59,352 nt of DNA, taken from NCBI GenBank assembly GCA_025060245.1, contig JANXCP010000002.1, positions 1-59,352 of the forward strand, in the 5' to 3' direction. The translations under genes and the position numbers were made by a program. The notes below the pieces were generated by a model. The model ran no database searches and was not told the origin of the DNA. It worked only from the letters and a program-made list of their open reading frames with translations. The DNA is from Thermoanaerobaculum sp. (lineage in GTDB: Bacteria; Acidobacteriota; Thermoanaerobaculia; Thermoanaerobaculales; Thermoanaerobaculaceae). Each line of letters starts with the position of its first letter. Position 1 is the first letter of the stretch. Below are positions 36,644-52,217 of this stretch, piece by piece.

Positions 36644-38029
36644 CTACCCCCCCTGGGACATGGATTCAAGAAACTCGCGGTTGGTGCGGGTGCGCTCCAG
36701 CCGCTCCAGTAACAGCTCCATTGCCTCCACCGTGGACAGGGGCGTGAGGACCTTGCGCAGCACCCACACCCGCTTCAACTCCCAGGGCTCCAAAAGCAGC
36801 TCTTCCTTCCGGGTGCCCGACTTGTTGATGTCAATGGCGGGGAAGATCCTCTTTTCCACCAACTTGCGGTCCAGGTGAACCTCCATATTGCCGGTACCCT
36901 TGAACTCTTCAAAGATGACGTCGTCCATGCGCGAGCCGGTGTCAATGAGGGCGGTGCCGATGATGGTCAGAGAGCCGCCCTCTTCAATGTTGCGCGCCGC
37001 GCCAAAAAAGCGCTTGGGTTTTTGCAAGGCGTTGGAGTCCACACCACCCGAAAGCACCTTTCCGGAAGGCGGAACGACGGTGTTGTAGGCGCGGGCCAAC
37101 CGGGTGATGGAGTCCAGCAGGATCACCACATCGCGCTTGTGCTCCACCAGCCGTTTGGCCTTTTCCAATACCATCTCCGCCACCTGCACGTGGCGATAGG
37201 CCGGCTCATCAAAGGTGGAAGAAATCACCTCGCCCTTCACCGACCGCTGCATGTCCGTCACCTCTTCCGGCCGCTCGTCAATCAGCAAGACGATGAGGAC
37301 AACTTCCGGATGGTTGGTGGTGACGGCGTTGGCAATGGCCTGCAGCATCATGGTTTTGCCTGTGCGCGGCGGTGCCACAATGAGCCCGCGCTGACCCTTG
37401 CCAATGGGGGTGAGGAGGTTCATGACCCGGCAGGTCATGTTCCCTTCCACCTCCAGGTTAATGCGTTGCATGGGGTACAGCGGGGTGAGGTTGTCAAAGA
37501 GGATCTTCTCCTGCGCCACCTCTGGCGGCTCAAAGTTCACCGCCTCCACCTTGATCAGGGCGAAGTACCGTTCTCCCTCCCTGGGCGGCCGAATTTGCCC
37601 CGAAACCGTGTCACCGGTGCGCAAGTTAAACCGTCGGATTTGCGACGGTGAGACGTAGATGTCGTCGGGCCCGGGGAGGTAGTTGTAATCCGGCGCACGG
37701 AGAAAACCGTACCCGTCGGGGAGAATTTCCAGCACCCCTTCGCCAAAGATCAGTCCTTCCCGCTCCGTTTGCGCTTGCAAGATCTTGAAGATCAGCTCTT
37801 GTTTGCGCATTCCCGCGGGGTGCTCCACCCCCAGCTCCCTCGCCACGTCGGTGAGTTGGGCGATGGACATATCCTGCAGGGTGCGGATATTAAGGCGCTC
37901 CCCCTCCTCGGAAACCTCCTCCGCCTCCAGGGCCTCCTCGTCCACCACCACCGGCAGACCCTCGGGGTTGGAGTCCTCTCGCCGACGGCGACCCCGTCGG
38001 GAGCTGTTGGCTTTTTCTTCTCGGGCCAT
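36644..38029 (-). CDS. rho: Transcription termination factor Rho
   Basis: 461 residues. Hexameric RNA-dependent helicase/ATPase. A short basic and acidic N-terminal tail (residues 1-45) precedes the Rho N domain ([23 protein letters not shown]), the cold-shock RNA-binding domain ([21 protein letters not shown]), Walker [22 protein letters not shown] (Walker B region) and Q/R loop residues [16 protein letters not shown] at 38029 has AAGGAGC upstream. 27 bases after engB. Confidence 0.98.
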
Positions 38030-38056: not shown

Positions 38057-38638
38057 CTAACCAAAAAGCGGCGTTTGCAGCCGCCGAGCTATCTGCTGCA
38101 CCAGTTCCCTTTTCCCTTCACCGCTTTTGGCGGAAAAGATCAAGGGTGGCTCGCTCAACTGAAGATCACGCTGCACCCGCGCGCGCTCCTGCACTAGGGC
38201 ATGGCGTGGTAAGGCGTCCGCCTTGGTGAGCACCACCAGCACCGGTTTCGCCGCGTGGTAGCACAGCTGGAGCAGAGCCTGATCCAGGGGGGATGTGGGG
38301 ACCCGTGGGTCTACCAGCGCCACCACGAGGCGCAGGCGCTCCTCCTTCAGGATGTATTCCGTGACGTGTTCCCCCCAGGCTTGGCGTTGGCTCTTGTCCA
38401 CGGCGGCAAACCCGTAGCCGGGGAGGTCAACAAAGAAACAGCGGCCGTTCACCAAGAAGTAATTGAGGGTTTTCGTCTTCCCCGGTGTCTTGCTCACCTT
38501 GGCCAGCTTTCGCCCAAAGACGGCATTGAGCAAGCTGGACTTGCCCACGTTAGAGCGGCCAGCAAAGGCCACCTGCGGCAGGGGCTCCCGCGGCCCCTGG
38601 CGGAAATCCGCAACGCAGGCGCGCAAATCCACGTGCAC
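38057..38638 (-). CDS. engB: Ribosome biogenesis GTP-binding protein YihA/EngB
   Basis: 193 residues, the usual size. GTPase for 50S assembly: G1 GRSNVGKSSLLN, PGKTKTLNYFLVN (switch I/G2), DLPGYGFA (G3), LTKAD (G4) and FSAKSGEG (G5). GTG at 38638 with GAGGGG upstream, 12 bases after lon; lon-engB adjacency is common. Confidence 0.97.
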   Translation of the reverse strand: MHVDLRACVADFRQGPREPLPQVAFAGRSNVGKSSLLNAVFGRKLAKVSKTPGKTKTLNYFLVNGRCFFVDLPGYGFAAVDKSQRQAWGEHVTEYILKEERLRLVVALVDPRVPTSPLDQALLQLCYHAAKPVLVVLTKADALPRHALVQERARVQRDLQLSEPPLIFSAKSGEGKRELVQQIARRLQTPLFG

Positions 38639-38650
38639 CTCTTGGTCCCC

Positions 38651-41050
<2,400 letters not shown>

Positions 41051-41085
41051 AACTGCTCCTTTGGCAGATCAGGGAACCAGAGCCG

Positions 41086-42330
41086 CTACCCGGCTTTGCG
41101 GATGGAGGCCAGCGGGGTCACCCGCCGCTCCACCACCTCGCGCGTGATCACGATTTCCGTGATGTCGTTGCGCGAGGGGACCTGATACATCACATCTAAC
41201 ATCAGCTCTTCCAAAATAATTTTCAAGCCCCTGGCCCCCACGTTGCGCGCCAAGGCCTCTGCCGCAATGGCCTCCAGGGCATCCTGGGTAAAACGGAGGG
41301 TCACCCCTTCCATGCCCAGCATGGTCTCGTACTGCTTGACCAGAGAGTTCTTCGGCTCGGTGAGGATGCGCACCAGCGCCTTGCGGTCCAGCTCGTGCAG
41401 GGCCGCCACCACGGGGACCCGCCCCACGAACTCGGGGATCATGCCAAACTTGATGAGGTCATCGGGGTGGACTTGCTGCAGCAGCTCAGAAACGGATTTT
41501 TCCTCCCGCGTAAGGATTTTGGCCTCAAAGCCCAGCGCCTTTTGGTTCAGCCGCCGGGCCACGATATCCTCCAGCCCCACGAAGGCCCCGCCGCAGATGA
41601 ACAAGATGTTGGTGGTATCAATTTGCAAAAACTCCTGGTGGGGGTGCTTGCGTCCCCCCTGGGGAGGCACGTTGGCGATGGTTCCCTCCAGGATCTTCAG
41701 CAACGCCTGCTGCACCCCTTCCCCGGAGACGTCCCGGGTGATGGAGGGCGAGTCCTGTTTGCGGGCAATCTTGTCAATTTCATCAATGTAGACGATCCCC
41801 CGCTCGCAGCGCTCGCGGTCCCCATCCGCCGCTTGGTACAGGCGCAACAGGATGTTCTCCACATCCTCCCCCACGTATCCCGCCTCGGTGAGGGTGGTGG
41901 CGTCCACGATGGTGAAGGGGACGTCCAAAAGTCGCGCCAGGGTCTGCGCCAGCAGCGTCTTCCCGGTTCCCGTGGGGCCAATGAGCAGGATGTTGGACTT
42001 GGACAGCTCCACCTCGGGGCGGGGGGTGGAGGAAAAGTAATCCACCCGCCGGTAGTGGTTGTACACCGCCACCGCCAGCTTCTTCTTGGCCTGCTCCTGG
42101 CCGATGACGTACTGATCCAAAAAGGCCTTGATTTCCTCCGGCTTGGGTAAGCCACGTTGGGCTTCTCGCGCCTCCCGGGCACGGTCCTCGGCAATGATGT
42201 CAAGGCACACATCCACGCACTCGTCGCAGATATACACATTTGGACCGGCGATGAGCTTGCGCACTTCCCGCTGGGATTTGTTGCAAAAGCTGCAGCGCAG
42301 CAAGTGTTCACGGCCTTCCCGACTGACCAT
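41086..42330 (-). CDS. clpX: ATP-dependent Clp protease ATP-binding subunit ClpX
   Basis: 414 residues. Unfoldase that feeds ClpP. N-terminal zinc finger ([19 protein letters not shown], then [11 protein letters not shown]), Walker [16 protein letters not shown], Walker [13 protein letters not shown], a pore loop within [11 protein letters not shown], and the ClpP-binding loop region near [16 protein letters not shown] (the usual IGFG loop is read here as ALGFEAK). ATG at 42330 has GGAG eight bases upstream. Confidence 0.98.
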
Positions 42331-42351
42331 TAGGGTATCTCCACGGGCATT

Positions 42352-42966
42352 CTACACCTTTTTCCCTGCCGTGCCCTCTGGGGCCTCCCGGTGCGCGATG
42401 ACCCGGTCGATCAAACCGTATTCCAGCGCCTCCTTTGCCTCCAAAATGAAGTCCCGGTCCGTATCGGCGTTGATCTTTTCCAGCGGCTGGCCGGTGTGGG
42501 CTGCTAGGATCTCATTGAGGCGCTGGCGCAGGCGCAGGATATCCTTGGCGTGGATGTCTATATCTGTGGCCTGACCCCCCAAGCCGAAGGCCAAGGGCTG
42601 GTGCAACAACACCCGCGCATGGGGTAACGCCATCCTCTTTCCCCTCGTGCCCCCGGCTAGCAACACGGCGGCCATGGAGGAGGCCTGCCCGACGCAAATG
42701 GTGGCCACATCTGGCTTCACGTACTGCATGGTATCGTAAATGGCCAACCCTGCCGAAATGGAACCGCCCGGGGAGTTGATGTACAGCGAAATATCCCGGT
42801 TGGGGTTTTCCGCCTCAAGGAACAGCATCTGCGCGATGACCAGGGAGGCCACATGGTCGTCAATGGGCTCGCCGAGAAAAATCACGTGATCCTTCAGCAA
42901 ACGGGAGAAGATATCGTAGGCCCGCTCCCCTCTGGGGGTTTGCTCCACCACAATGGGCACCAGCAT
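42352..42966 (-). CDS. clpP: ATP-dependent Clp protease proteolytic subunit ClpP
   Basis: 204 residues from ATG at 42966 (AAGGG upstream), two bases after the tig stop. Catalytic Ser98 in [15 protein letters not shown] and His122 in [11 protein letters not shown], with Asp in the NADTDRDF segment; [18 protein letters not shown] is the oxyanion-side signature. Self-compartmentalised serine protease partner of ClpX. An in-frame start 21 bases earlier lies inside tig and is not preferred. Confidence 0.97.
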
Positions 42967-42968
42967 GG

Positions 42969-44231
42969 CTACCCTTCCCCGAGCCAAGGCCCCAGCACTT
43001 GGGCCAAGGCCCGCTCTCTGCGAAGGATACCTTGAATCTTCTCCAGCCCACCCCTTTTTGCCAAGTTGCCCTTCAGCTCGGCAAAGGGAACCCCGGTCTC
43101 TTGTGCTTCGCGCCGGATCACCTCGTCCACCTCTGCCTCGGCCACTTCCACCCCCAACTGCTCGGCCAAACGGTCCAGCAGCAGCTCCTCCCGCAGCCGT
43201 TGTTCCACCGAGGCGCGCAACCGCGGCGCCAGCTCTTGCCAGTTCAACTGTCCCACATCCACCCCTTGCCGGTGTAACGACTCCGCGTACCGCACCGCTG
43301 CCTTCTGGGTTTCCTCCTCCACCAGACGCTGAGGGAGCGGGAGCGCCCCGTCACCCGCCAGGTAGGCCAAAAACGCTTGCCGGATGGCCTTGGCCCGTTC
43401 CCTTTTCTTACCCTGGCGCAGGGCCACTCGCGCTTGTTCCCGCAGCCCCTCCAGGCCACCTTCCACACCCACCCGAACGGCCAGCTCATCATCCAAAGCT
43501 GGCACCACTTTGCGCCGCAAGCCCTTAACCCGCAAGGTGTACTGCACCGGCACGGCTCCTTTTTCGCCCTCCCTTACCACCTCACGGCGGGCTTTGGTCT
43601 CCTCACCCACGGCGAGTCCACGCACCGCCGCTTCAATTTCCGGGAATACCTCACCGGCGCCCAGGCGAAACATGGCCAGCTCCTCGCGAAATGGGTCGCC
43701 GCCCCCCTCGGGAAAGTGCCCCTCCACCTCCGCTTCCACCAACATGCCGTCCTCCGCACGCCCCTCCTCAATCCCTTCCCAAGTGGCCTGGCGCTCAGCA
43801 AGGCCTTGCAGGAACGCCTCCACCTCTTCTTCCGTCGGCTCCACGGAAACCTGTGGCGGCTGGAAACCTTCCAGAGCTGGAAGGGTCACCGGGGGGTAAA
43901 TTTCAAACTCGCCGGTGAAGCTCAAACCGCCGCCCTCCTCCCAACGCGCTTCCAAAACCCCCAGGGGTCCCGCCACACGGAAACCCTCCTGGGCCACCGC
44001 TTGATCCCACAGCTGGCGGAACAGGCGCTCTTCCGTCTCCCGGCGGATCTCCTCGGAAAAGCGCGTGGCGACCAGCGGCAACGGCGCCTTTCCCGGGCGA
44101 AACCCTGGCAAGACCGCATGCCTGGCCAACCCGCGGATGACCTCCTGGCGTACTTTTTCGGCCGTGGCTGCGGAAACTGTTCCCTTAAGCCTGACCAGGC
44201 AAGGGGATGGGCGTTCCAATTCGTAGGTCAT
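42969..44231 (-). CDS. tig: Trigger factor (ribosome-associated chaperone / PPIase)
   Basis: 420 residues from ATG at 44231, which has GAGG six bases upstream. TF N-terminal ribosome-binding domain including [17 protein letters not shown] (usual GFRxGKxP signature), a central FKBP-like part ([35 protein letters not shown]) and the helical C-domain. The PPIase part looks divergent. An ATG at 44243 shares its A with the tRNA-Leu CCA end and is unlikely. It follows two tRNA genes directly and precedes clpP. Confidence 0.95.
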
Positions 44232-44242
44232 GGGGATCCTCA

Positions 44243-44328
44243 TGGTGCGAAAGGGGGGACTCGAACCCCCACGGGTGGTGCCCACGAGATCCTAAGTCTC
44301 GCGCGTCTACCAGTTCCGCCACTTTCGC
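44243..44328 (-). tRNA. tRNA-Leu (anticodon TAG)
   Basis: Acceptor GCGAAAG pairs with CTTTCGC. D-arm GCGGAACTGGTAGACGC, anticodon loop CTTAGGA (TAG), a long variable arm as in class II tRNAs, T-arm GGGGGTTCGAGTCCCCC and an encoded CCA. Reads CUA and related Leu codons. Twelve bases separate its end from the tig ATG. Confidence 0.97.
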
Positions 44329-44339
44329 GGCAGCAAACC

Positions 44340-44415
44340 TGGTGAGCCGCGTAGGAGTCGAACCTACAACCTAGGGATTAAGAGTCCCTTGCTCTGCCAG
44401 TTGAGCTAGCGGCCC
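44340..44415 (-). tRNA. tRNA-Lys (anticodon CTT)
   Basis: Acceptor GGGCCGC pairs with GCGGCTC (one G-U). D-arm GCTCAACTGGCAGAGC, anticodon stem AGGGA/TCCCT with loop CTCTTAA (CTT), T-arm GTAGGTTCGACTCCTAC and an encoded CCA. The 5' ten bases overlap the end of the GT9 gene, whose TAG stop lies within the tRNA. Eleven bases separate it from tRNA-Leu. Confidence 0.97.
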
Positions 44416-45362
44416 ACCGCCGTGCTAATACTACCCGTGCCAGGGTGGTCGTGCAAGTCCCCACCGAGGAGCAGATCAATGGCGGCCAAGACGCGCTCTG
44501 GGGGCAAGCCTGCCCACCCGCGTGAGGAAAAGTGGGGAGCTTGCAGGACGAGACCTGAGCTGGGCCCGGTCCGCGCTGGGGAAGTGGGCCCAAAGAGCGC
44601 CACCGTGGGGCAACCCACCGCCGCCGCCAGATGCGTCAGACCGGAATCGTTACCCACCGCCAGGCAACTTCCAGCCAAAAGCTCCATCACCTGGCCCAAG
44701 TCCGCCTGGGGAGGGAACAGCGCTCCTCCCCCGCGTTGGGCCAGCCAAACACCCACCTCGGCGTCACCCTGGCCCACCACGAGGGTGACGGCATACCCGG
44801 CCCGCTGAAGCTTTTGGCTCACGTGTAAAAAGTGCTCTTTCGGATAGCGCTTGGCCCGCAGACCCAGGGAGCCCGGCAGGAGCACCACGGAGCGTCCCCG
44901 GGGCATTGCCGGGGCGCGGTTCCACCACGCGGAAGACTGACCGTTCACCGGCACTAAGCCCAAGGAAACCAGGGCCTGGTCAAAGTCATGGCGTTGGTGC
45001 CTGGTCCGATCCACGTAGAAGGTGTGCAGCCCCAGAAGCTTTGCCCCCCTACCGCAGCTCGCCCAGGCTTCACCGGCTGGCAGGGCACGCAGGAGCAATT
45101 TGGCCCGGGTGGAGTGGCGAAAAGTGATGGCCAAATCGTACCGCCCCAAGCTTCGGGCAAAAAGGGGACCCGCCCGCGGCGGGCGCTCACAAAGAAAAAC
45201 AGCTTGCCCCTGCAGCAAGGGTCGGTGCTGCGGCGGTGCCAAAAGCGTCGTGTGCCCTTCCCGGTTGGCGGCGATGAGCTTTGCCAAAGCCGGTTGGCTG
45301 TGGATTAAGTCGCCCAACCAGTTCGGCAGATCCACCAAGAGCTGACAGGGAAACCTCCCCAC
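44406..45362 (-). CDS. Glycosyltransferase family 9 (heptosyltransferase-like)
   Basis: 318 residues. GT-B enzyme of the ADP-heptose:LPS heptosyltransferase family, acting on the LPS inner core at the cytoplasmic face. DLPNWLGDLIHSQPALAKL at the start (usual NWLGD element), SVVLLPGSLGLRAKRYP and the donor-site CLAVGNDSGLTHLAAAVGCPTVALFGPT. Starts with GTG at 45362, three bases past the GT2 stop, with a weak Shine-Dalgarno. Its TAG stop lies inside tRNA-Lys. Confidence 0.92.
   Translation of the reverse strand: MGRFPCQLLVDLPNWLGDLIHSQPALAKLIAANREGHTTLLAPPQHRPLLQGQAVFLCERPPRAGPLFARSLGRYDLAITFRHSTRAKLLLRALPAGEAWASCGRGAKLLGLHTFYVDRTRHQRHDFDQALVSLGLVPVNGQSSAWWNRAPAMPRGRSVVLLPGSLGLRAKRYPKEHFLHVSQKLQRAGYAVTLVVGQGDAEVGVWLAQRGGGALFPPQADLGQVMELLAGSCLAVGNDSGLTHLAAAVGCPTVALFGPTSPARTGPSSGLVLQAPHFSSRGWAGLPPERVLAAIDLLLGGDLHDHPGTGSISTAVGR
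44428..44456 (-). promoter_or_regulatory. Promoter of tRNA-Lys/tRNA-Leu (and probably tig-clpPX-lon) inside the GT9 gene
   Basis: -35 TTGCAC (44451-44456) and -10 TAGTAT (44428-44433) with a 17-base spacer. The predicted start is a few bases before the mature tRNA-Lys 5' end, followed by a G+C-rich discriminator as in stable-RNA promoters. It lies within the last codons of the GT9 gene. Confidence 0.7.
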
Positions 45363-45365
45363 GTG

Positions 45366-46148
45366 TTACTCTACGGAACCCAGGGCCGCTTCGTCTGCCC
45401 CTGCTGCCACCGACGCCCATTTGAGGAAGGTGCCGTAGGCGGCCAGGACGGCAAGGATCAACCCGACCCGGCCGTCCAAAAAGCCCAGGCGCAAGAGGTA
45501 GGAACGCACGAACCGCCACTCCGCCCGCGCCACCGCCATGCCCAGGCTGCAGCGCTTCCCCTCCCTGCGGGCTTGCTGCGCCCCCCGCAGGGCGTAGGCC
45601 ACCACCTTGGGCAGGTACTGGGAAAAGGAGCGAAAGGTGAGATGGTGCAAAGGTCCGGGAAGCCGCGCCGCCCCTTTCACCTCAGCCACCCCGTGGACCC
45701 ACCGGTCAGCAAACCGCACCCGCTGCCGCCGCACCACCCGCACAACCCAGTCCCACCCCCAGTCGCCAAACCGTACTCGCCGACCCAACGCCCAATTGAG
45801 CCGGCGCACCGCATAGGCATCTCCCTGGGGGTTTTTCAGCGCGTTCGTCAACGCCGCCGCCAGGGGCGGGCTGACCCGTTCGTCGGCGTCCAAGACCAGA
45901 ACCCAAGGGCAGGTGCACAACTCAAGGCCCCAGTTGATCTGCTGTGCCGAGCTGACAAACGGATGGCGAAACACCCTGGCCCCCGCTTGTCGCGCCAGGT
46001 CTTCGGTGGCATCGGTGGAGGCCGCATCCACCACCACCACCACTTCCCCCGCCACCTCGGCCACGGAGGCCAAGGCCCCCGGAAGCATCTCCTCTTCGTT
46101 CTTGGCGGTGATCAGCACCGACAGGGCCGGGCGGTCAGACTGGGGCAT
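45366..46148 (-). CDS. Glycosyltransferase family 2, WaaE/KdtX-like
   Basis: 260 residues. LSVLITAKNEEEMLPGALASV, EVVVVVDAASTDATEDLA and the DxD motif LVLDADERVSPPL match the LPS-core beta-1,4-glucosyltransferase-like group. WVHGVAEV and the C-terminal FLDGRVGLILAVLAAYGTFLKW are also shared. Neighbouring GT9 supports a role in LPS core assembly; exact sugar unknown. Overlaps ymdB by 14 bases. Confidence 0.88.
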   Translation of the reverse strand: MPQSDRPALSVLITAKNEEEMLPGALASVAEVAGEVVVVVDAASTDATEDLARQAGARVFRHPFVSSAQQINWGLELCTCPWVLVLDADERVSPPLAAALTNALKNPQGDAYAVRRLNWALGRRVRFGDWGWDWVVRVVRRQRVRFADRWVHGVAEVKGAARLPGPLHHLTFRSFSQYLPKVVAYALRGAQQARREGKRCSLGMAVARAEWRFVRSYLLRLGFLDGRVGLILAVLAAYGTFLKWASVAAGADEAALGSVE

Positions 46149-46944
46149 GGGGTTGGCCCTCCTTTTCCCAGCGAAAGACCCGGCGCACGGTCAAGGCCTT
46201 GCCCGATGGCGGGTCCACCTCTACCAAGACGGCCGCCAGAGCCCCCCCTTGGGTAGCCGGCTCCAACGCCCGCGGGGTGGCCAACAGGAAGCGTTCCAGC
46301 ACCTCTTTAGGTTTGAAGCCAATGATCCCCTGGTAAGGCCCGGTCATGCCCACGTCGGTAATAAAAGCAGTCCCCAGGGGGAGGATGCGCTCGTCCGCCG
46401 TAGGCACGTGGGTGTGAGTGCCCAAGACGGCGCTGACGCGCCCATCCAGGTACCATCCCATCGCTTGCTTTTCCGAGGTAGCCTCGGCGTGCATGTCCAC
46501 CAGCACCACCTTCACCTCGGGAGGGAGGGTGGCCAGGAGCCTGTCGGCGGTGCGGAAGGGCGATTCCATAGGGGTCATGAAGGTCAACCCTTGCAGGTTC
46601 AACACCGCCACCGGCACCCCCTGGCGGCGCGAGGTCATCACGCACAGGCCGCGCCCAGGGTTGCCCTCGGGGTAATTGGCCGGGCGCAGGAGGCGCGGTT
46701 CACGGTCAAGGAGGGGACCCGTTTCCTTCTTATCCCACACGTGGTTTCCCGAGGTGAACACATCCACCGGCAGGGCTGACAGCTCTGCCCACACCTCGGC
46801 GGTCAAACCAAACCCCCCCGCGGCGTTTTCCACGTTGGCCACGACAAAATCGGGCTGCAATTCTCCCACCACCTTGGGCAAGAGCTGCCGCAAGATCCGA
46901 CGTCCCACGCGACCTACCACGTCACCAATGAAAAGCAGCCTCAT
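46135..46944 (-). CDS. YmdB-type metallophosphoesterase (TIGR00282 family)
   Basis: 269 residues. Dimetal phosphodiesterase; the Bacillus YmdB acts on 2',3'-cyclic nucleotides. Metal ligands are visible in LLFIGDVVGRVGRR, VANVENAAGGFG, SGNHVWDKKE, VVLVDMHAEATSEK and GTHTHVPTADE. Cytoplasmic, full length. ATG at 46944 has GGAGGGG upstream. Its job next to LPS transferases is not evident. Confidence 0.93.
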   Translation of the reverse strand: MRLLFIGDVVGRVGRRILRQLLPKVVGELQPDFVVANVENAAGGFGLTAEVWAELSALPVDVFTSGNHVWDKKETGPLLDREPRLLRPANYPEGNPGRGLCVMTSRRQGVPVAVLNLQGLTFMTPMESPFRTADRLLATLPPEVKVVLVDMHAEATSEKQAMGWYLDGRVSAVLGTHTHVPTADERILPLGTAFITDVGMTGPYQGIIGFKPKEVLERFLLATPRALEPATQGGALAAVLVEVDPPSGKALTVRRVFRWEKEGQPHAPV

Positions 46945-47000
46945 CGCCCCTCCGCGCTTAGGTTACCCCAAAGGGGACGCGGCCGGTTCTGAGTCAGCCC

Positions 47001-47028
47001 TTGACAACACCTTCGCACACCTAATAAT
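47001..47028 (+). promoter_or_regulatory. Promoter of the bc-complex operon
   Basis: -35 TTGACA (47001-47006) and -10 AATAAT (47023-47028, within TAATAAT) with a 16-base spacer, 28 bases before the Rieske ATG. It is an ordinary housekeeping-type promoter with a short leader containing GGGGGGAG. Confidence 0.8.
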
Positions 47029-47056
47029 GCTCGGCAGTGGTTGACGGGGGGAGCCC

Positions 47057-47500
47057 ATGAGCAGCCATCAGCGGATCAGCCGAAAAAGCTTCCTCAACTG
47101 GTTCTTGGGCACATCCTTAGGGGCTACCATCCTGGCCACGTTGTACCCCATCTTCCGCTACGTACTGCCCCCTGAAGTGGCAGAAGCCCCCACCAACCGC
47201 GTGTTGGCGGGCAAGCTGTCCGAGCTGCCACCGAATACCGGAAAGGTGTTTCGCTTCGGCGCCAAGCCGGGCATCCTCGTGCGCACCCCCAGTGGCGAAG
47301 TGCGCGCCTTTTCCGGGATCTGTACGCACCTCAACTGCACTGTGCAGTACCGGCCTGACTTCCAGCACATTTGGTGCGCGTGCCATAACGGCCACTACGA
47401 TTTGCAGGGGAAAAACATTCAGGGACCACCCCCGCGCCCGTTGGAAGCGTACCGAGTGGATATCGTGGGTGACGAGATCTACGTCACACGGGGAGCCTAG
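47057..47500 (+). CDS. Rieske iron-sulfur protein of a bc-type complex
   Basis: 147 residues. An N-terminal SRKSFLNWFLGTSLGATILATL combines a twin-arginine-like motif (Arg-Lys) with the membrane anchor. The [2Fe-2S] cluster ligands are in ICTHLNCTVQY (Cys, His) and WCACHNGHYDLQG (Cys, His), with the disulfide cysteines present. It passes electrons from menaquinol at the Qo site to the cytochrome c partner. Shine-Dalgarno GGGGGGAG. Three bases before the cytochrome b gene. Confidence 0.96.
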   Translation: MSSHQRISRKSFLNWFLGTSLGATILATLYPIFRYVLPPEVAEAPTNRVLAGKLSELPPNTGKVFRFGAKPGILVRTPSGEVRAFSGICTHLNCTVQYRPDFQHIWCACHNGHYDLQGKNIQGPPPRPLEAYRVDIVGDEIYVTRGA

Positions 47501-47503
47501 GCC

Positions 47504-48574
47504 ATGAGACTGGGGGAACGCATTTGGCACGCGCTGGACAGTCGCCTAAACTTGCAACCCCTGGTGCAGTTTGCCAAGGAGAAAAGCGTCCCCAGACATC
47601 GCCACGACTGGATGTACTACTTTGGCGGCTTGACCCTGTTCTTCTTTGGCGTGCAAGTGATCACCGGCATCCTTTTGTTGTTGTACTACCGGCCCACGGC
47701 GGAGGCCGCCTTTGAGAGCGTGCAGTTCATCATGAGCCGCGTTCCCTTCGGCTGGCTCATCCGCTCCATCCACTCCTGGTCGGCCAACCTCATGATCGCC
47801 GCCGCGTTCGTCCACATGTTCACGGTGTTCTTCTCCGGGGCTTACGTCAAGCCCCGCGAGTTGACCTGGTGGACCGGCGCCGCCCTTTTGCTTCTGGCAC
47901 TGGGATTTGGTTTCTCGGGTTACCTGCTGCCTTGGAACGAGTTGGCCTTTTTTGCCACCCGCGTGGGTACGGACATGGTCTCCAAGGTGCCCCTGGTGGG
48001 GGATTGGCTGCTCAAAGTCCTGCGTGGCGGAGAGGACGTGACCGGAGCCACCCTGACTCGCTTTTTTGGCATTCATGTGGCCATCTTGCCCATGCTCACC
48101 AGCCTGCTCATCCTGTTACACCTGGCCCTCATCCAACGGCAGGGGATGCACGAACCGCAGGAAAAGCCCCCGCTGCCCCCCCGCCCTTTCTTCCCCAACT
48201 TCGTGTTGCGGGAGCTCATGGTGTGGCTGGTGGGCTTGGCCGCTCTCGCGGCCCTGGCGGCGTTTTTTCCGTGGGAGTTGGGCAAAAAGGCTGATCCCTT
48301 TGCCCCGGCCCCCGCAGGCATTAAACCCGAATGGTATTTCCTTTTCATGTTCGAAACCCTAAAGCTTCTGCCCGCCAAAATCTTTGGCCTGGACGGTGAG
48401 GTCGTAGGCTTGGCCGCCTTCACCGCCGGTGGGCTCTTCTGGTTCCTCGCCCCCCTTTGGGACCGCAAACGGGCTCGGGGGGAGAAAAGCCTCTTCGCCT
48501 TGCTGGTGGGGTGGGGGGTTTTGCTCTACATCCTCTCCTTCACCGCCCTGTCCTACCTGGGGGTGTTCCAATGA
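47504..48574 (+). CDS. Cytochrome b subunit (N- and C-domains fused) of the bc-type complex
   Basis: 356 residues, about eight membrane segments. Haem ligands: His-x13-His in [18 protein letters not shown] and His-x14-His in [23 protein letters not shown]; the x14 spacing is that of b6f/menaquinol types. The Qo motif is [13 protein letters not shown]. Both halves are in one polypeptide, shorter than mitochondrial cytochrome b. The stop overlaps the next gene as ATGA. Menaquinol is the likely donor, in line with mqnA and mqnC. Confidence 0.95.
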
Positions 48575-49842
48575 CCCGCCTTCTCTCCCTCGCCGCCCTT
48601 GCCTGCGCCGCCCTGGCGTTGGCCGCTCCGCCACCGAGGACGGTGGGGGCACCCGGCAAACCCGCTCAGGACCAGTGCACCCTCTGCCACAGGGAGCTGG
48701 AGGAGGCGCGGCTGCGCCAGCCGGCGTTGTTGGCCGCCGAAGACGTCCACCACCGGCAAGGGATCACCTGCGCTGGGTGCCACGGGGGAGACCCCGCGGC
48801 CACCGAGCCTGAGGTGGCCATGGACCCAAGCAAGGGCTTTGTGGGCAAGATTCCCCCGCAGAAGGTCCCTGAGGTTTGCGCGGCCTGCCACAGCGACACC
48901 AGCTTCATGCTGCGCTACGACCCCAACATCCCCACTGATCAGCTGGCCCAGTACCGCACCTCCAAACACGGCCTGGGACTGGCGAAGGGGGATCAGCGGG
49001 TGGCGACCTGTGCGTCGTGCCATGGGGCGCATGGGATCTTGCCCGCCAGTGATGCCCGCTCCCCCGTTTACCCGAGCCGCATTGTGGAGACCTGCGCCCG
49101 CTGCCACGCCGACCGTTCTCTGATGGCCCAGTACGGCATTCCGGGAAATGAAATCGAGGACTACCAGCAGTCGGTGCACTACCAGGCGCTGACCGTGAAG
49201 AACGACCTTTCCGCCCCGACCTGCAACGATTGTCACGGAGCCCACGGGGCCACGCCCCCTGGCGTTTCCTCGGTGTCCAACGTCTGCGGCACCTGCCACC
49301 TTACCCAACGGGAGGCCTTTGACCTGTCTCCCCACAAGGACGCTTTCGCCACCATGGAGCAGCCAGCCTGTGAGGCCTGCCACTCCAACCACAAGGTCGT
49401 CCCGCCCCAGGACCAGTGGATTGGAGTAGAGGAGGGCCAAGTTTGCGGCACCTGCCACAGTGCCGGGGACCCCGGCGCGGAGGCGGCGGAGAAGATCAGG
49501 CACGCATTGCTGGAAACGGTGCAGCGCAGCGAGGCGGTCCGGCAACGAGTGGAGCGGGCGGAGCAGCGTGGCATGCTGATGGATGAGGCTCTGGTGAAGT
49601 TGGAGGAAGCCCACCAAGCCCTGGTGCTGGCCCGCAACGACGTGCATACCGTGGACCCCGCCCGGGTACAGGCGAGGACCGAGGAGGCGCAAATGGTGTT
49701 GGCGAAAGCCGAGGCGGACGCCGCCGCCGCTGAAGAAGAACTGGCTTTCCGCCACCGAGGGCTCAAAGTTTCCCTGCTGGTCATTCTCCTGGCGGTGGTA
49801 GCCCTAGGTTTGAAGATTCGCGAGCTGGAAAAGCAGAGCTAG
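48571..49842 (+). CDS. Membrane-anchored nine-haem cytochrome c, third subunit of the bc-type complex
   Basis: 423 residues with a signal peptide (cleavage about residue 20-25). Nine CxxCH motifs: at 36-40, 67-71, 103-107, 147-151, 175-179, 218-222, 239-243, 267-271 and 292-296, with many extra His as sixth ligands (for example SVHYQ, SKHGLG). A charged coiled coil follows (about 305-395) and one C-terminal membrane segment (about 398-415). It presumably replaces the mono- or dihaem cytochrome c1 and wires menaquinol oxidation to periplasmic acceptors. It overlaps the cytochrome b gene as ATGA and, at its 3' end, the convergent NapH-like gene by 62 bases. Acceptor unknown. Confidence 0.92.
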
Positions 49843-50890
49843 CCGGACCTGGCGCCCTCACCGCGGGTTCTTTTTCCGGCGGCGCCATCCCCCCCACATG
49901 CGTGTACAAAGGGGAGTGGATTTCCCGCAGGCGCCGTGCGTACTCCTCCTCGCTGACCACGCCGCGCCAGTGGCCTGCCAGGCGGAAGCCCCAGGTCACT
50001 GCCAAGTACACCCCCACCGCCAAGAGCACCCCGTGGGCCGGGCGCAGGCGACGCCGAGCCGCGGCCAGCCGTAAACACCCCTCCACCGGGCAGGAGGCGA
50101 CGCAGTCCTGGCAGCCCGTGCACTCCACCGAGCGGACGCGGGCCAGCCGGTGCACCGGCAGGCGAGCCGGGCAAACCTTGCTGCAGACCTTGCAGTTGGT
50201 GCAGCGTTTCGGGTCGCGCACCACCTTCCACGGCGCCAAAAGACCCATGAGCCCCACCAAAGCGCCGTAGGGGCAAAAGTACCGGCACCACAGGTCCCGC
50301 ACCAGCACCGAGCCCACCACCAGCACACCCACCACCGCCACCGTAAGCCGCGAAGGCTGGGCAAAGAACAGCAACATCTTCACGTCAGCGACGCGGTTGT
50401 AGGGGCTGTCCAGAAAGGAACGTACTTGGGCCAGGTCCATGGCCACCAGCACCGCCCAGAGGAAAAAGGCCAACAGGAGCCACTTGACGCTTCGCAGGAA
50501 CCAGTCCAGCACACGGGGGAGCTCCCAAGTGCTTCCCAAAAGCCTTCGTCCCAGCCGGCCCAACCATTCCGATACGGCCCCCACGGGGCACAGGTGGGAG
50601 CAAAAGGATCGGGCTACCGTGGCACTCATCAGCAGCGCCCCCACCAGGATGGCCAAGCCTGCGGGGTGAACCGGGTGCACTCCCTCGCCGGCCAGCCACA
50701 GGCGCAAGGACATGAGGGCGGAAATGGGCAAGAACCCCTCCACCCCCGGGGGGCGGTTCACCGCAGGGGTCTGGCCGCGCAGGTGGGCAAAGGCCCAAAG
50801 GGTGAAGAGGACGCCCACCAAAAGCGTCCAAAGGAAAAACAAGACCTGCCAACAACGGCGCCAGCGCACCACCTTAAAAAGTCTCGCCAT
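49781..50890 (-). CDS. NapH/NosR-like membrane iron-sulfur protein
   Basis: 369 residues, about five or six membrane segments. Two CxxxCP-type motifs in FCSHLCPVGAVSE and WCRYFCPYGALVG, then two [4Fe-4S] motifs CTNCKVCSKVCP and CTGCQDCVASCP, as in NapH/NosR/CcoG-type quinol-linked electron carriers. A last membrane segment and a long Pro-rich tail follow. It may transfer electrons between quinones and periplasmic or cytoplasmic partners. The start has GGGGGGAG upstream. The 3' end overlaps the nine-haem cytochrome gene by 62 bases on the opposite strand; a functional link with that complex is only suggested by position. Confidence 0.88.
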   Translation of the reverse strand: MARLFKVVRWRRCWQVLFFLWTLLVGVLFTLWAFAHLRGQTPAVNRPPGVEGFLPISALMSLRLWLAGEGVHPVHPAGLAILVGALLMSATVARSFCSHLCPVGAVSEWLGRLGRRLLGSTWELPRVLDWFLRSVKWLLLAFFLWAVLVAMDLAQVRSFLDSPYNRVADVKMLLFFAQPSRLTVAVVGVLVVGSVLVRDLWCRYFCPYGALVGLMGLLAPWKVVRDPKRCTNCKVCSKVCPARLPVHRLARVRSVECTGCQDCVASCPVEGCLRLAAARRRLRPAHGVLLAVGVYLAVTWGFRLAGHWRGVVSEEEYARRLREIHSPLYTHVGGMAPPEKEPAVRAPGPASSAFPARESSNLGLPPPGE

Positions 50891-50954
50891 TGCGCTCCCC
50901 CCGCGTGCAACTTAAGGTCTGAGAAAGGGGTCTTCTTTGCGCTGGCGCAAGAAG

Positions 50955-52217
50955 CTACCGGCCGCTCTCGAAACGGGCCCAGGACCAGCGCTCCACGATG
51001 GAGGCAGTCACCAGATCGCCGGTGACGTTGAGGGTGGTGCGGCACATATCCAGGAGCCGGTCCACGCCAAAGACCACCGCGATGCCCTCCGGCGGCACGC
51101 CGACCGTGGCCAGGACCATCATGAGCAAGGGCAGGGAACCGCCCGGGACCCCCGCCGTGCCGATGGCGGTCACCACCGCCAACAACACCACCAGCACCTG
51201 GGCCTTCAGCGACAAGGGCACGCCGAACACCTGCGCCAGGAACAGCACGGTGGCACCTTCAAACAGCGCCGTCCCGTTCATATTCAAGGTGGCCCCCAAA
51301 GGAAGGACAAACCCCGCCACCTCCCGGGAGATCCCCAGCTCATCCTGGGCCACCCGCATGGTGGTGGGGAGCGTGGCGTTGGAAGAGGAGGTGGAGAAGG
51401 CGGTGACCATCACCAGGCGAATACGCCGCAAAAACTCCAGCGGGGCGCGCCCGGCCACCAAGCGCACCACCAGCGGGTACACCACGAACTGGAACACGGC
51501 GAGCGCACCCACCACCGTGACCACGAAGGAGGAAAGGGTGAGCAACAGGCGCCAGCCAAACCGAGCGCTCACGGAAAAAATCAGGCAAAACACCCCCACC
51601 GGCGCCACGCGCATCACCAGGTTGATGATGGCCACCGTGGTGTGGGCTAAGCCCTCCAGTACCGACCCCAGCGCCCCAGCTTTCTCCCCCGCCGTGGCAA
51701 GGCCCACACCCAAGAACAGAGCAAAGACGATCACCGCCAACATATCCCCTGCGGCTGCTGCTTGCACGGGATTCCGGGGAATCAACTTCACCACCAACTC
51801 CGGCCACAGGGAGCGTCCAGCCATTTCCGCCGCCGAGCCCACCTCCCCGGCGTAGGCCGCTAAGAGTTGCTGCTTCACCTCTGCCGCGAGGGCTGCCCCG
51901 GGGCGGAGCAGGTTCATGGTAAAGATCCCCAAGGCGGACGAGGTTGTGGTGAGGAACAAGAAACAGAGCAAGGTGAGCGCTCCCAACCGGCCCACCTCGC
52001 GCAGGCTGCCCAAGGCCGCCACCCCCGTGGACAGGGTGGAGAGGATGAGGGGGATGACCACCATGATGAGGGCCGAAAGCCACATGCGACCCAAAGGTTC
52101 GGAGAGGTTGCGCACGAACCAGACAAGGATTGGGTGGTTCGGGGCCAGGGTTTGGGCGAGGATGCCCATGCCCGCTCCCGCTAAGAGAGCGGCAAAGATC
52201 CGGTTGGGCAGGCTCAA
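50955..52217 (-). CDS. Dicarboxylate/amino acid:cation symporter (DAACS family)
   Basis: 420 residues, eight-segment glutamate-transporter fold. The HP1 serine-rich tip STSSSNATLP and the NMNGTALFEG element (usual NMDGT) are present, with VPGGSLPLLMMVLATVG and DRLLDMCRTTLNVTGD in HP2/TM8, where Asp-Arg positions bind the substrate. Imports dicarboxylates or acidic amino acids with Na+ or H+. TTG at 52217 has GGGGGG four bases upstream. Nine bases after rsgA. Confidence 0.94.
   Translation of the reverse strand: MSLPNRIFAALLAGAGMGILAQTLAPNHPILVWFVRNLSEPLGRMWLSALIMVVIPLILSTLSTGVAALGSLREVGRLGALTLLCFLFLTTTSSALGIFTMNLLRPGAALAAEVKQQLLAAYAGEVGSAAEMAGRSLWPELVVKLIPRNPVQAAAAGDMLAVIVFALFLGVGLATAGEKAGALGSVLEGLAHTTVAIINLVMRVAPVGVFCLIFSVSARFGWRLLLTLSSFVVTVVGALAVFQFVVYPLVVRLVAGRAPLEFLRRIRLVMVTAFSTSSSNATLPTTMRVAQDELGISREVAGFVLPLGATLNMNGTALFEGATVLFLAQVFGVPLSLKAQVLVVLLAVVTAIGTAGVPGGSLPLLMMVLATVGVPPEGIAVVFGVDRLLDMCRTTLNVTGDLVTASIVERWSWARFESGR

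Follow-up and report, generated by a model that had tools for sequence, protein, structure and literature searches.

Two tRNA genes lie directly ahead of tig, the gene for trigger factor, in the stretch of DNA studied here (59,352 nt, hereafter the window), and the question raised by this locus is whether the promoter of these tRNAs also serves tig and the protease genes behind it, and whether such an arrangement is a local matter or an old one. From the sequence comparisons reported below, we consider it likely (a probability of roughly 80%) that a transcript from the tRNA promoter runs through both tRNAs into tig and, judging by the spacing of the genes, through clpP, clpX and lon, and that the linkage of tRNA-Leu(UAG) with tig is old.

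The tRNA-tig locus and its promoter

All features of the locus lie on the minus strand. tRNA-Lys (anticodon CUU; 44340..44415) and tRNA-Leu (anticodon UAG, CCA encoded; 44243..44328) were called by ARAGORN and matched Rfam RF00005 with 67.3 and 58.7 bits, respectively; they stand directly upstream of tig and on its strand, which is the layout of a tRNA-led operon. The gaps from tRNA-Lys to tRNA-Leu and from tRNA-Leu to tig are 11 nt each. After the CCA end of tRNA-Leu at 44243 come the 11 nt TGAGGATCCCC, and then the ATG of tig at 44231. The Shine-Dalgarno sequence of tig, GAGGA (44237..44241), starts 2 nt past the CCA, in agreement with the earlier note, according to which the Shine-Dalgarno sequence begins right past the CCA.

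The tig gene (42969..44231) encodes a trigger factor of 420 aa (PF05697/PF05698; TIGR00115 with 230.7 bits, cut-off 180.2), and the trigger-factor match of close relatives opens at the Met that corresponds to its start. It is followed, 2 nt past its stop, by clpP (42352..42966; PF00574, E 1.4e-81), and then by clpX (41086..42330; PF06689, PF07724), lon (38651..41050; PF05362, PF02190), a GTPase gene of the engB/yihA type (38057..38638; PF01926), which we take to be engB as the earlier note named it, and rho (36644..38029; PF07497, PF07498), with gaps of 2, 21, 35, 12 and 27 nt in that order. For the four genes tig-clpP-clpX-lon, the gene order, the single strand and the short gaps are all those expected of the cluster. 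On the other side, the upstream neighbours on the tRNA strand are YmdB, GT2 and GT9 genes spaced at -14, 3 and -10 nt, the last value being the distance into tRNA-Lys: the heptosyltransferase-type GT9 gene (44406..45362; PF01075) has its stop inside tRNA-Lys, with a 10-nt overlap, and the tRNA-Lys promoter is carried within its 3' end (44406-44456). An ORF of the relative G008 that resembles, by eye, the glycosyltransferase of the window likewise ends 10 nt inside tRNA-Lys.

The -35 hexamer TTGCAC (44451..44456) and the -10 hexamer TAGTAT (44428..44433), with a 17-nt spacer and 12 nt ahead of tRNA-Lys, were found where the earlier note had placed them. That note also called this the only clear promoter for many kilobases, but taken as a single sequence the site is weak. 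It matches the sigma-70 consensus TTGACA/TATAAT at 7 of 12 positions; a consensus scan of 41000-52000 (at least 9/12) returned no minus-strand promoter, the tRNA-Lys site included; and with a matrix built from 17 of the 18 other tRNA promoters of its own genome (one, Arg, was left out), the site came 32nd among 10425 minus-strand positions (36.6-47.06 kb). A matrix from ten other family promoters, with the window excluded, placed it 1st of 10425, which only restates its conservation, because those promoters are homologous.

It is the comparison within the order, and not the scoring of a single sequence, that makes a convincing case from sequence for a real tRNA-Lys promoter. In each of the 28 family and order loci that have both tRNAs, which come from 14 genera, the motif TTGNNN-N17-TANNNT is found 11-13 nt ahead of tRNA-Lys; among the controls, shifted anchors gave 0/1120 and shuffles 14/5600. 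In 14 genus representatives, the sequence from -150 to -56 is unconserved (mean pairwise identity 0.29), and the stretch -38..-13 taken whole, with an identity of 0.31, is no better conserved, so what is kept is the spaced hexamers. A column-by-column test on the 14 genus representatives singled out one column of the -35 box, three bases nearer the tRNA (-6, -2 and -1) and zero -10 columns, the latter because the spacing to the tRNA differs by 1-2 nt between loci. Besides the -35 T, the columns to emerge upstream are a G at -6 and GT at -2/-1 before tRNA-Lys, for which RNase P processing is perhaps the reason. Beyond the order, the motif was present at the same place in one of the 16 class loci with both tRNAs; the position of the promoter is therefore conserved in the order and not in the class, and this slightly reduces our confidence in a tRNA-led operon.

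Breadth of the linkage and its breaks

Of the 56 loci in the own-class set, 46 have an intact tRNA-Leu(UAG) ahead of tig on its strand, five have the 3' part only, and in five the gene is absent or reversed. This set uses 56 of 58 Trigger_N places (the second places of G033 and G015 were omitted) from a search in which three of the 59 genomes gave no Trigger_N match, and one of its loci, L011, has just 424 nt upstream. In L010 (G041), tRNA-Leu(UAG) lies directly upstream of tig on the opposite strand, and the tRNA-Leu called by ARAGORN in L033 (G016) was read as a remnant and excluded from the intact count. In the sample of the phylum, Acidobacteriota, tRNA-Leu(UAG) was upstream of tig in 44/68 loci; here 115 genomes matched, 12 of them already in the class set, and 68 of the remaining 103 were examined (28 by score and 40 hand-picked, one or two per family).

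Five further phylum sets, each built around a named genome whose label supplies the phylum name used here, were examined for tRNA-Leu(UAG) within 800 nt of tig and gave 21/30 for the set centred on Halorhodospira, 21/28 for Desulfobacterales, 17/29 for Nitrospira, 10/30 for Peptococcaceae and 16/30 for a Chlorobi-labelled genome; the Bacillota and Bacteroidota sets include 30 of 31 loci each, and five loci with scant upstream sequence (L314, L323, L326, L354 and L359) were scored as misses. Among named loci anchored on ClpP, tig was present in 79/80, and tRNA-Leu(UAG) lay within 600 nt in 40 of the 74 that extend 300 nt or more upstream. The positives carry labels that include Nitrospira, Desulfobacterales, Methylomirabilota, Aquificaceae, Rokubacteria, Chlorobi, Halorhodospira and Xanthomonadales; in the 12 enterobacterial loci of this collection, tRNA-Leu(UAG) was found within 600 nt in none. 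The named and class sets are not independent, since L161-L164 are contigs of G015, G014, G007 and G009.

The isoacceptor at tig is UAG in every set (L303 alone has an extra Leu(UAA)), and a rough estimate by hand, from the 37 tRNA genes present in 2.35 Mb, puts the chance of any same-strand tRNA at this place at about 0.6%. Longer tRNA arrays with Leu-tig at their end occur at several loci, one example being L305 with Pro(UGG)-Arg(UCU)-His(GUG)-Arg-Lys-Leu, and in the genome of the window, Pro-Arg-His-Arg tRNA genes stand together on another contig, as if an ancestral array had split. Because the linkage is found across the phylum sets, often at the end of a longer tRNA array, it is probably ancestral, and the tRNA pair before tig looks like an old arrangement rather than a local oddity.

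The linkage has also been broken. Just the 3' part of tRNA-Leu(UAG) lies ahead of tig in five family genomes: L115 (G008), L116 (G015), L117 (G014), L118 (G016) and L119 (G011). In G008, tig abuts a second tRNA-Leu 3' part, an intact tRNA-Lys-tRNA-Leu pair stands about 15 kb farther upstream, and no integrase was seen by eye in the ORF list of this stretch of about 15 kb; in G016, a phage-type tyrosine integrase (PF00589; PHROG integrase) adjoins the fragment. A split tRNA-Leu with an intron was considered as well, and was rejected for G008 on account of the intact pair about 15 kb away from the 3' copy, and for G016 on account of the integrase beside the fragment. Read most simply, these cases point to mobile elements that integrate at tRNA-Leu and cut tig off from the tRNA promoter, with an element presumed in G011, G014 and G015 by likeness only, and tRNA-Leu(UAG) at tig looks like a recurrent integration site. 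Since these five genomes have only a tRNA-Leu fragment before tig, tig can live without the tRNA promoter. A TTGTAT/TATGCT site is present 234 nt upstream of tig in G008 and G015, and no match to the promoter motif was found within 400 nt upstream of tig in G011, G014 and G016.

Co-transcription, processing and rival readings

To put the proposed operon together, a sigma-70-type promoter just ahead of tRNA-Lys would start a transcript that passes tRNA-Lys and tRNA-Leu(UAG) straight into tig and, as the spacing suggests, onward to clpP, clpX and lon; engB and rho may belong to it as well, the same-strand spacing being the sole argument for these two. RNase P would release the 5' ends of the tRNAs, and the 3' end of tRNA-Leu would be cut, or else tig would be translated off the uncut tRNA-mRNA. 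As the CCA and the ribosome-binding site of tig adjoin each other, a 30S subunit loading at tig and the enzyme maturing the 3' end of tRNA-Leu would either compete or act in a set order. The linkage itself would be old and mostly vertically inherited across bacteria. What is observed directly is the anatomy of the locus, a promoter conserved in the order, the lack of a comparable internal site and the widespread linkage; from these we infer that there is one transcript, how far it runs, in which order it is processed and that the linkage is ancestral. Co-transcription appears likely in this order because the promoter is kept in 28/28 loci and the motif TTGNNN-N16..18-TANNNT occurs between the 5' end of tRNA-Lys and the tig start in 0/28, and the 11 nt between tRNA-Leu and tig are too few to hold an intrinsic terminator or a promoter for tig alone. 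Together with the breadth of the linkage, this supports the suggestion of the earlier note that transcription continues from the tRNAs into tig. Two further proposals of that note, a tie of protein-quality-control output to stable-RNA control and a tig mRNA 5' end made by 3' processing of tRNA-Leu, are hypotheses that go beyond this support.

Terminator-like sites between tRNA-Leu and tig were found in 0/47 class-set loci, although the power of this test is low in the genome of the window; one of 24 tRNA genes tested there (37 in total) has such a site at most 90 nt past the tRNA. Elsewhere they were seen between tRNA-Leu and tig in 1/44 of the phylum sample, 1/21 in Pseudomonadota, 0/21 in Desulfobacterota and 0/17 in Nitrospirota, and in 3/10 pairs of the Bacillota set and 6/16 pairs of the Bacteroidota set. 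In three class loci (L003, L005 and L008), tRNA-Lys and tRNA-Leu are separated by a terminator-like hairpin with a T run, which is a possible attenuator for tRNA-Leu and tig. Since the Bacillota and Bacteroidota pairs and these three loci carry terminator-like sites, adjacency is not always co-transcription. A fold of the whole region (z -1.75) did not recover the tRNA cloverleaves.

It seems unlikely that tRNA-Leu and tig are adjacent in the window without co-transcription, with tRNA-Leu terminated (e.g., by Rho) and tig read from a weak promoter of its own inside the tRNA genes. Rho-type ends are conceivable, given how rare intrinsic terminators are past the tRNAs of this genome, and a site starting at 44264, inside tRNA-Leu, scores 5.04 with the own-genome matrix, the same as the tRNA-Lys promoter; yet the -10 of that site (GAGGAT) would overlap the Shine-Dalgarno sequence, its sequence is limited to three genus members among the family and order gaps, and the spaced motif is missing between the 5' end of tRNA-Lys and tig in all 28 family and order loci. 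For a promoter in the tRNA-Leu/tig region, which the earlier note had proposed looking for, the motif thus speaks against one and the matrix leaves one candidate level with the tRNA-Lys site. Read-through from the same-strand glycosyltransferase genes, which overlap tRNA-Lys, may be an additional input, but that YmdB-GT2-GT9, closely spaced as they are, should be the main one, with the tRNAs and tig merely their distal part, we regard as very improbable: the motif is kept near tRNA-Lys in 28/28 loci while the sequence farther upstream is unconserved, and the minus strand of the divergent region 46945-47056 scores poorly (best scores 1.8 and 2.4 with the two matrices).

A reading that is compatible with co-transcription, and that we hold for a serious possibility at somewhat less than even odds, is that the locus is a frozen relic of ancestral gene order without regulatory meaning. 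The constancy of the UAG isoacceptor, the longer Lys-Leu-tig arrays in other phyla next to the Pro-Arg-His-Arg genes on another contig here, the repeated losses of the linkage and the terminators in some phyla would all suit a relic; on the other hand, the class set has kept its gaps short, the order has kept the promoter, and gene order over such distances usually decays unless it is selected.

The gaps deserve a closer description. Of the 11 genus and family loci that have both tRNAs, 10 leave 11-12 nt between tRNA-Leu and tig, and the remaining one, G005, leaves 252 nt; the distance is 13-35 nt in 17/17 order loci and larger in many others, with a median of 20 nt in the class set, and the short gaps of family and order relatives contain a GGAG or GAGG motif. 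Going by the size of the 30S footprint, a 30S subunit bound at tig across an 11-nt gap would reach over the acceptor-stem end of the tRNA, and cleavage a few bases beyond the CCA would damage the ribosome-binding site of tig. CCA is encoded in 30 of the 33 ARAGORN-called tRNAs of the examined loci. RNase E/G is present in this genome; for RNase Z, no match above the TIGR02651 cut-off was found in this incomplete assembly and 20 relatives, with weaker matches existing and the cut-off being passed in only 9 of 14 control genomes.

To hypothesize further, the coupling of tRNA-Leu(UAG) with tig could be ancient and selected, perhaps as old as the last bacterial common ancestor, with the maturation of a single essential pre-tRNA gating the synthesis of trigger factor and ClpXP/Lon, which we think rather unlikely. 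If such gating were true, 30S binding and 3' maturation would be mutually exclusive at a gap of about 11 nt, an excess of unprocessed tRNA would lead to more trigger factor, and efficient processing would lead to less.

Other tRNA genes of the same genome stand close to protein genes as well. tRNA-Glu(CUC) ends 6 nt before truA (TIGR00071), with GAGG directly past the CCA (L076:664-1572; G000:C175), which is a second very tight tRNA-mRNA fusion; a tRNA with a CAU anticodon, which may be either elongator Met or Ile2, the substrate of TilS, lies 5 nt before tilS (TIGR02432; L078:130-1550; G000:C38); and tRNA-Val(CAC) is followed by a terminator-like hairpin and then by an ORF that resembles, by eye, a threonyl-tRNA synthetase (L072; G000:C171:927-1002 and downstream).

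Significance and comparison with known systems

The fate of newly made proteins depends on trigger factor, ClpXP and Lon. If the linkage means a shared promoter, the supply of a decoding tRNA and that of the nascent-chain chaperone would be joined in many bacteria, with the 12 enterobacterial loci as an exception. The linkage is real, conserved and probably old, its regulatory meaning is unproven, and a conserved tRNA-tig locus makes tRNA-mRNA processing testable.

In Escherichia coli, the array thrU-tyrU-glyT-thrT-tufB leads from tRNA genes into a gene for EF-Tu. The present locus is similar in that a tRNA array would be read into a highly expressed, translation-related gene, but differs in that tRNA-Lys and tRNA-Leu lead trigger factor and ClpXP/Lon, with an 11-nt gap. 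The tuf gene of this genome itself starts 79 nt past the last of its Thr-Tyr-Gly-Thr tRNA genes.

The metY-rimP-nusA-infB operon of E. coli is a further case with a tRNA as the leader of a protein operon. According to PMC5371410, the metY-nusA-infB transcript is cleaved by RNase III, with the cut in a rimP-metY spacer, and an internal promoter P2 is mentioned; the 11-nt gap found here is too small for either. A 1989 title cited in the same article has RNase III freeing the tRNA and thereby setting off breakdown of the mRNA behind it, which, going by that title, is the opposite of a productive new 5' end.

Clustering of tig with clpPX in many bacteria, together with a functional link between trigger factor and ClpXP, is reported in PMC7804408, where tig of E. 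coli is given as its own operon; the word "tRNA" has 0 occurrences in the main text of that article. A full-text literature search, judged on titles and the openings of abstracts and covering few subscription papers, gave no description of tRNA-Leu(UAG) ahead of tig. Operons led by tRNAs and the proximity of tig to clpPX are already known, and what is new is the breadth of the linkage between tRNA-Leu(UAG) and tig.
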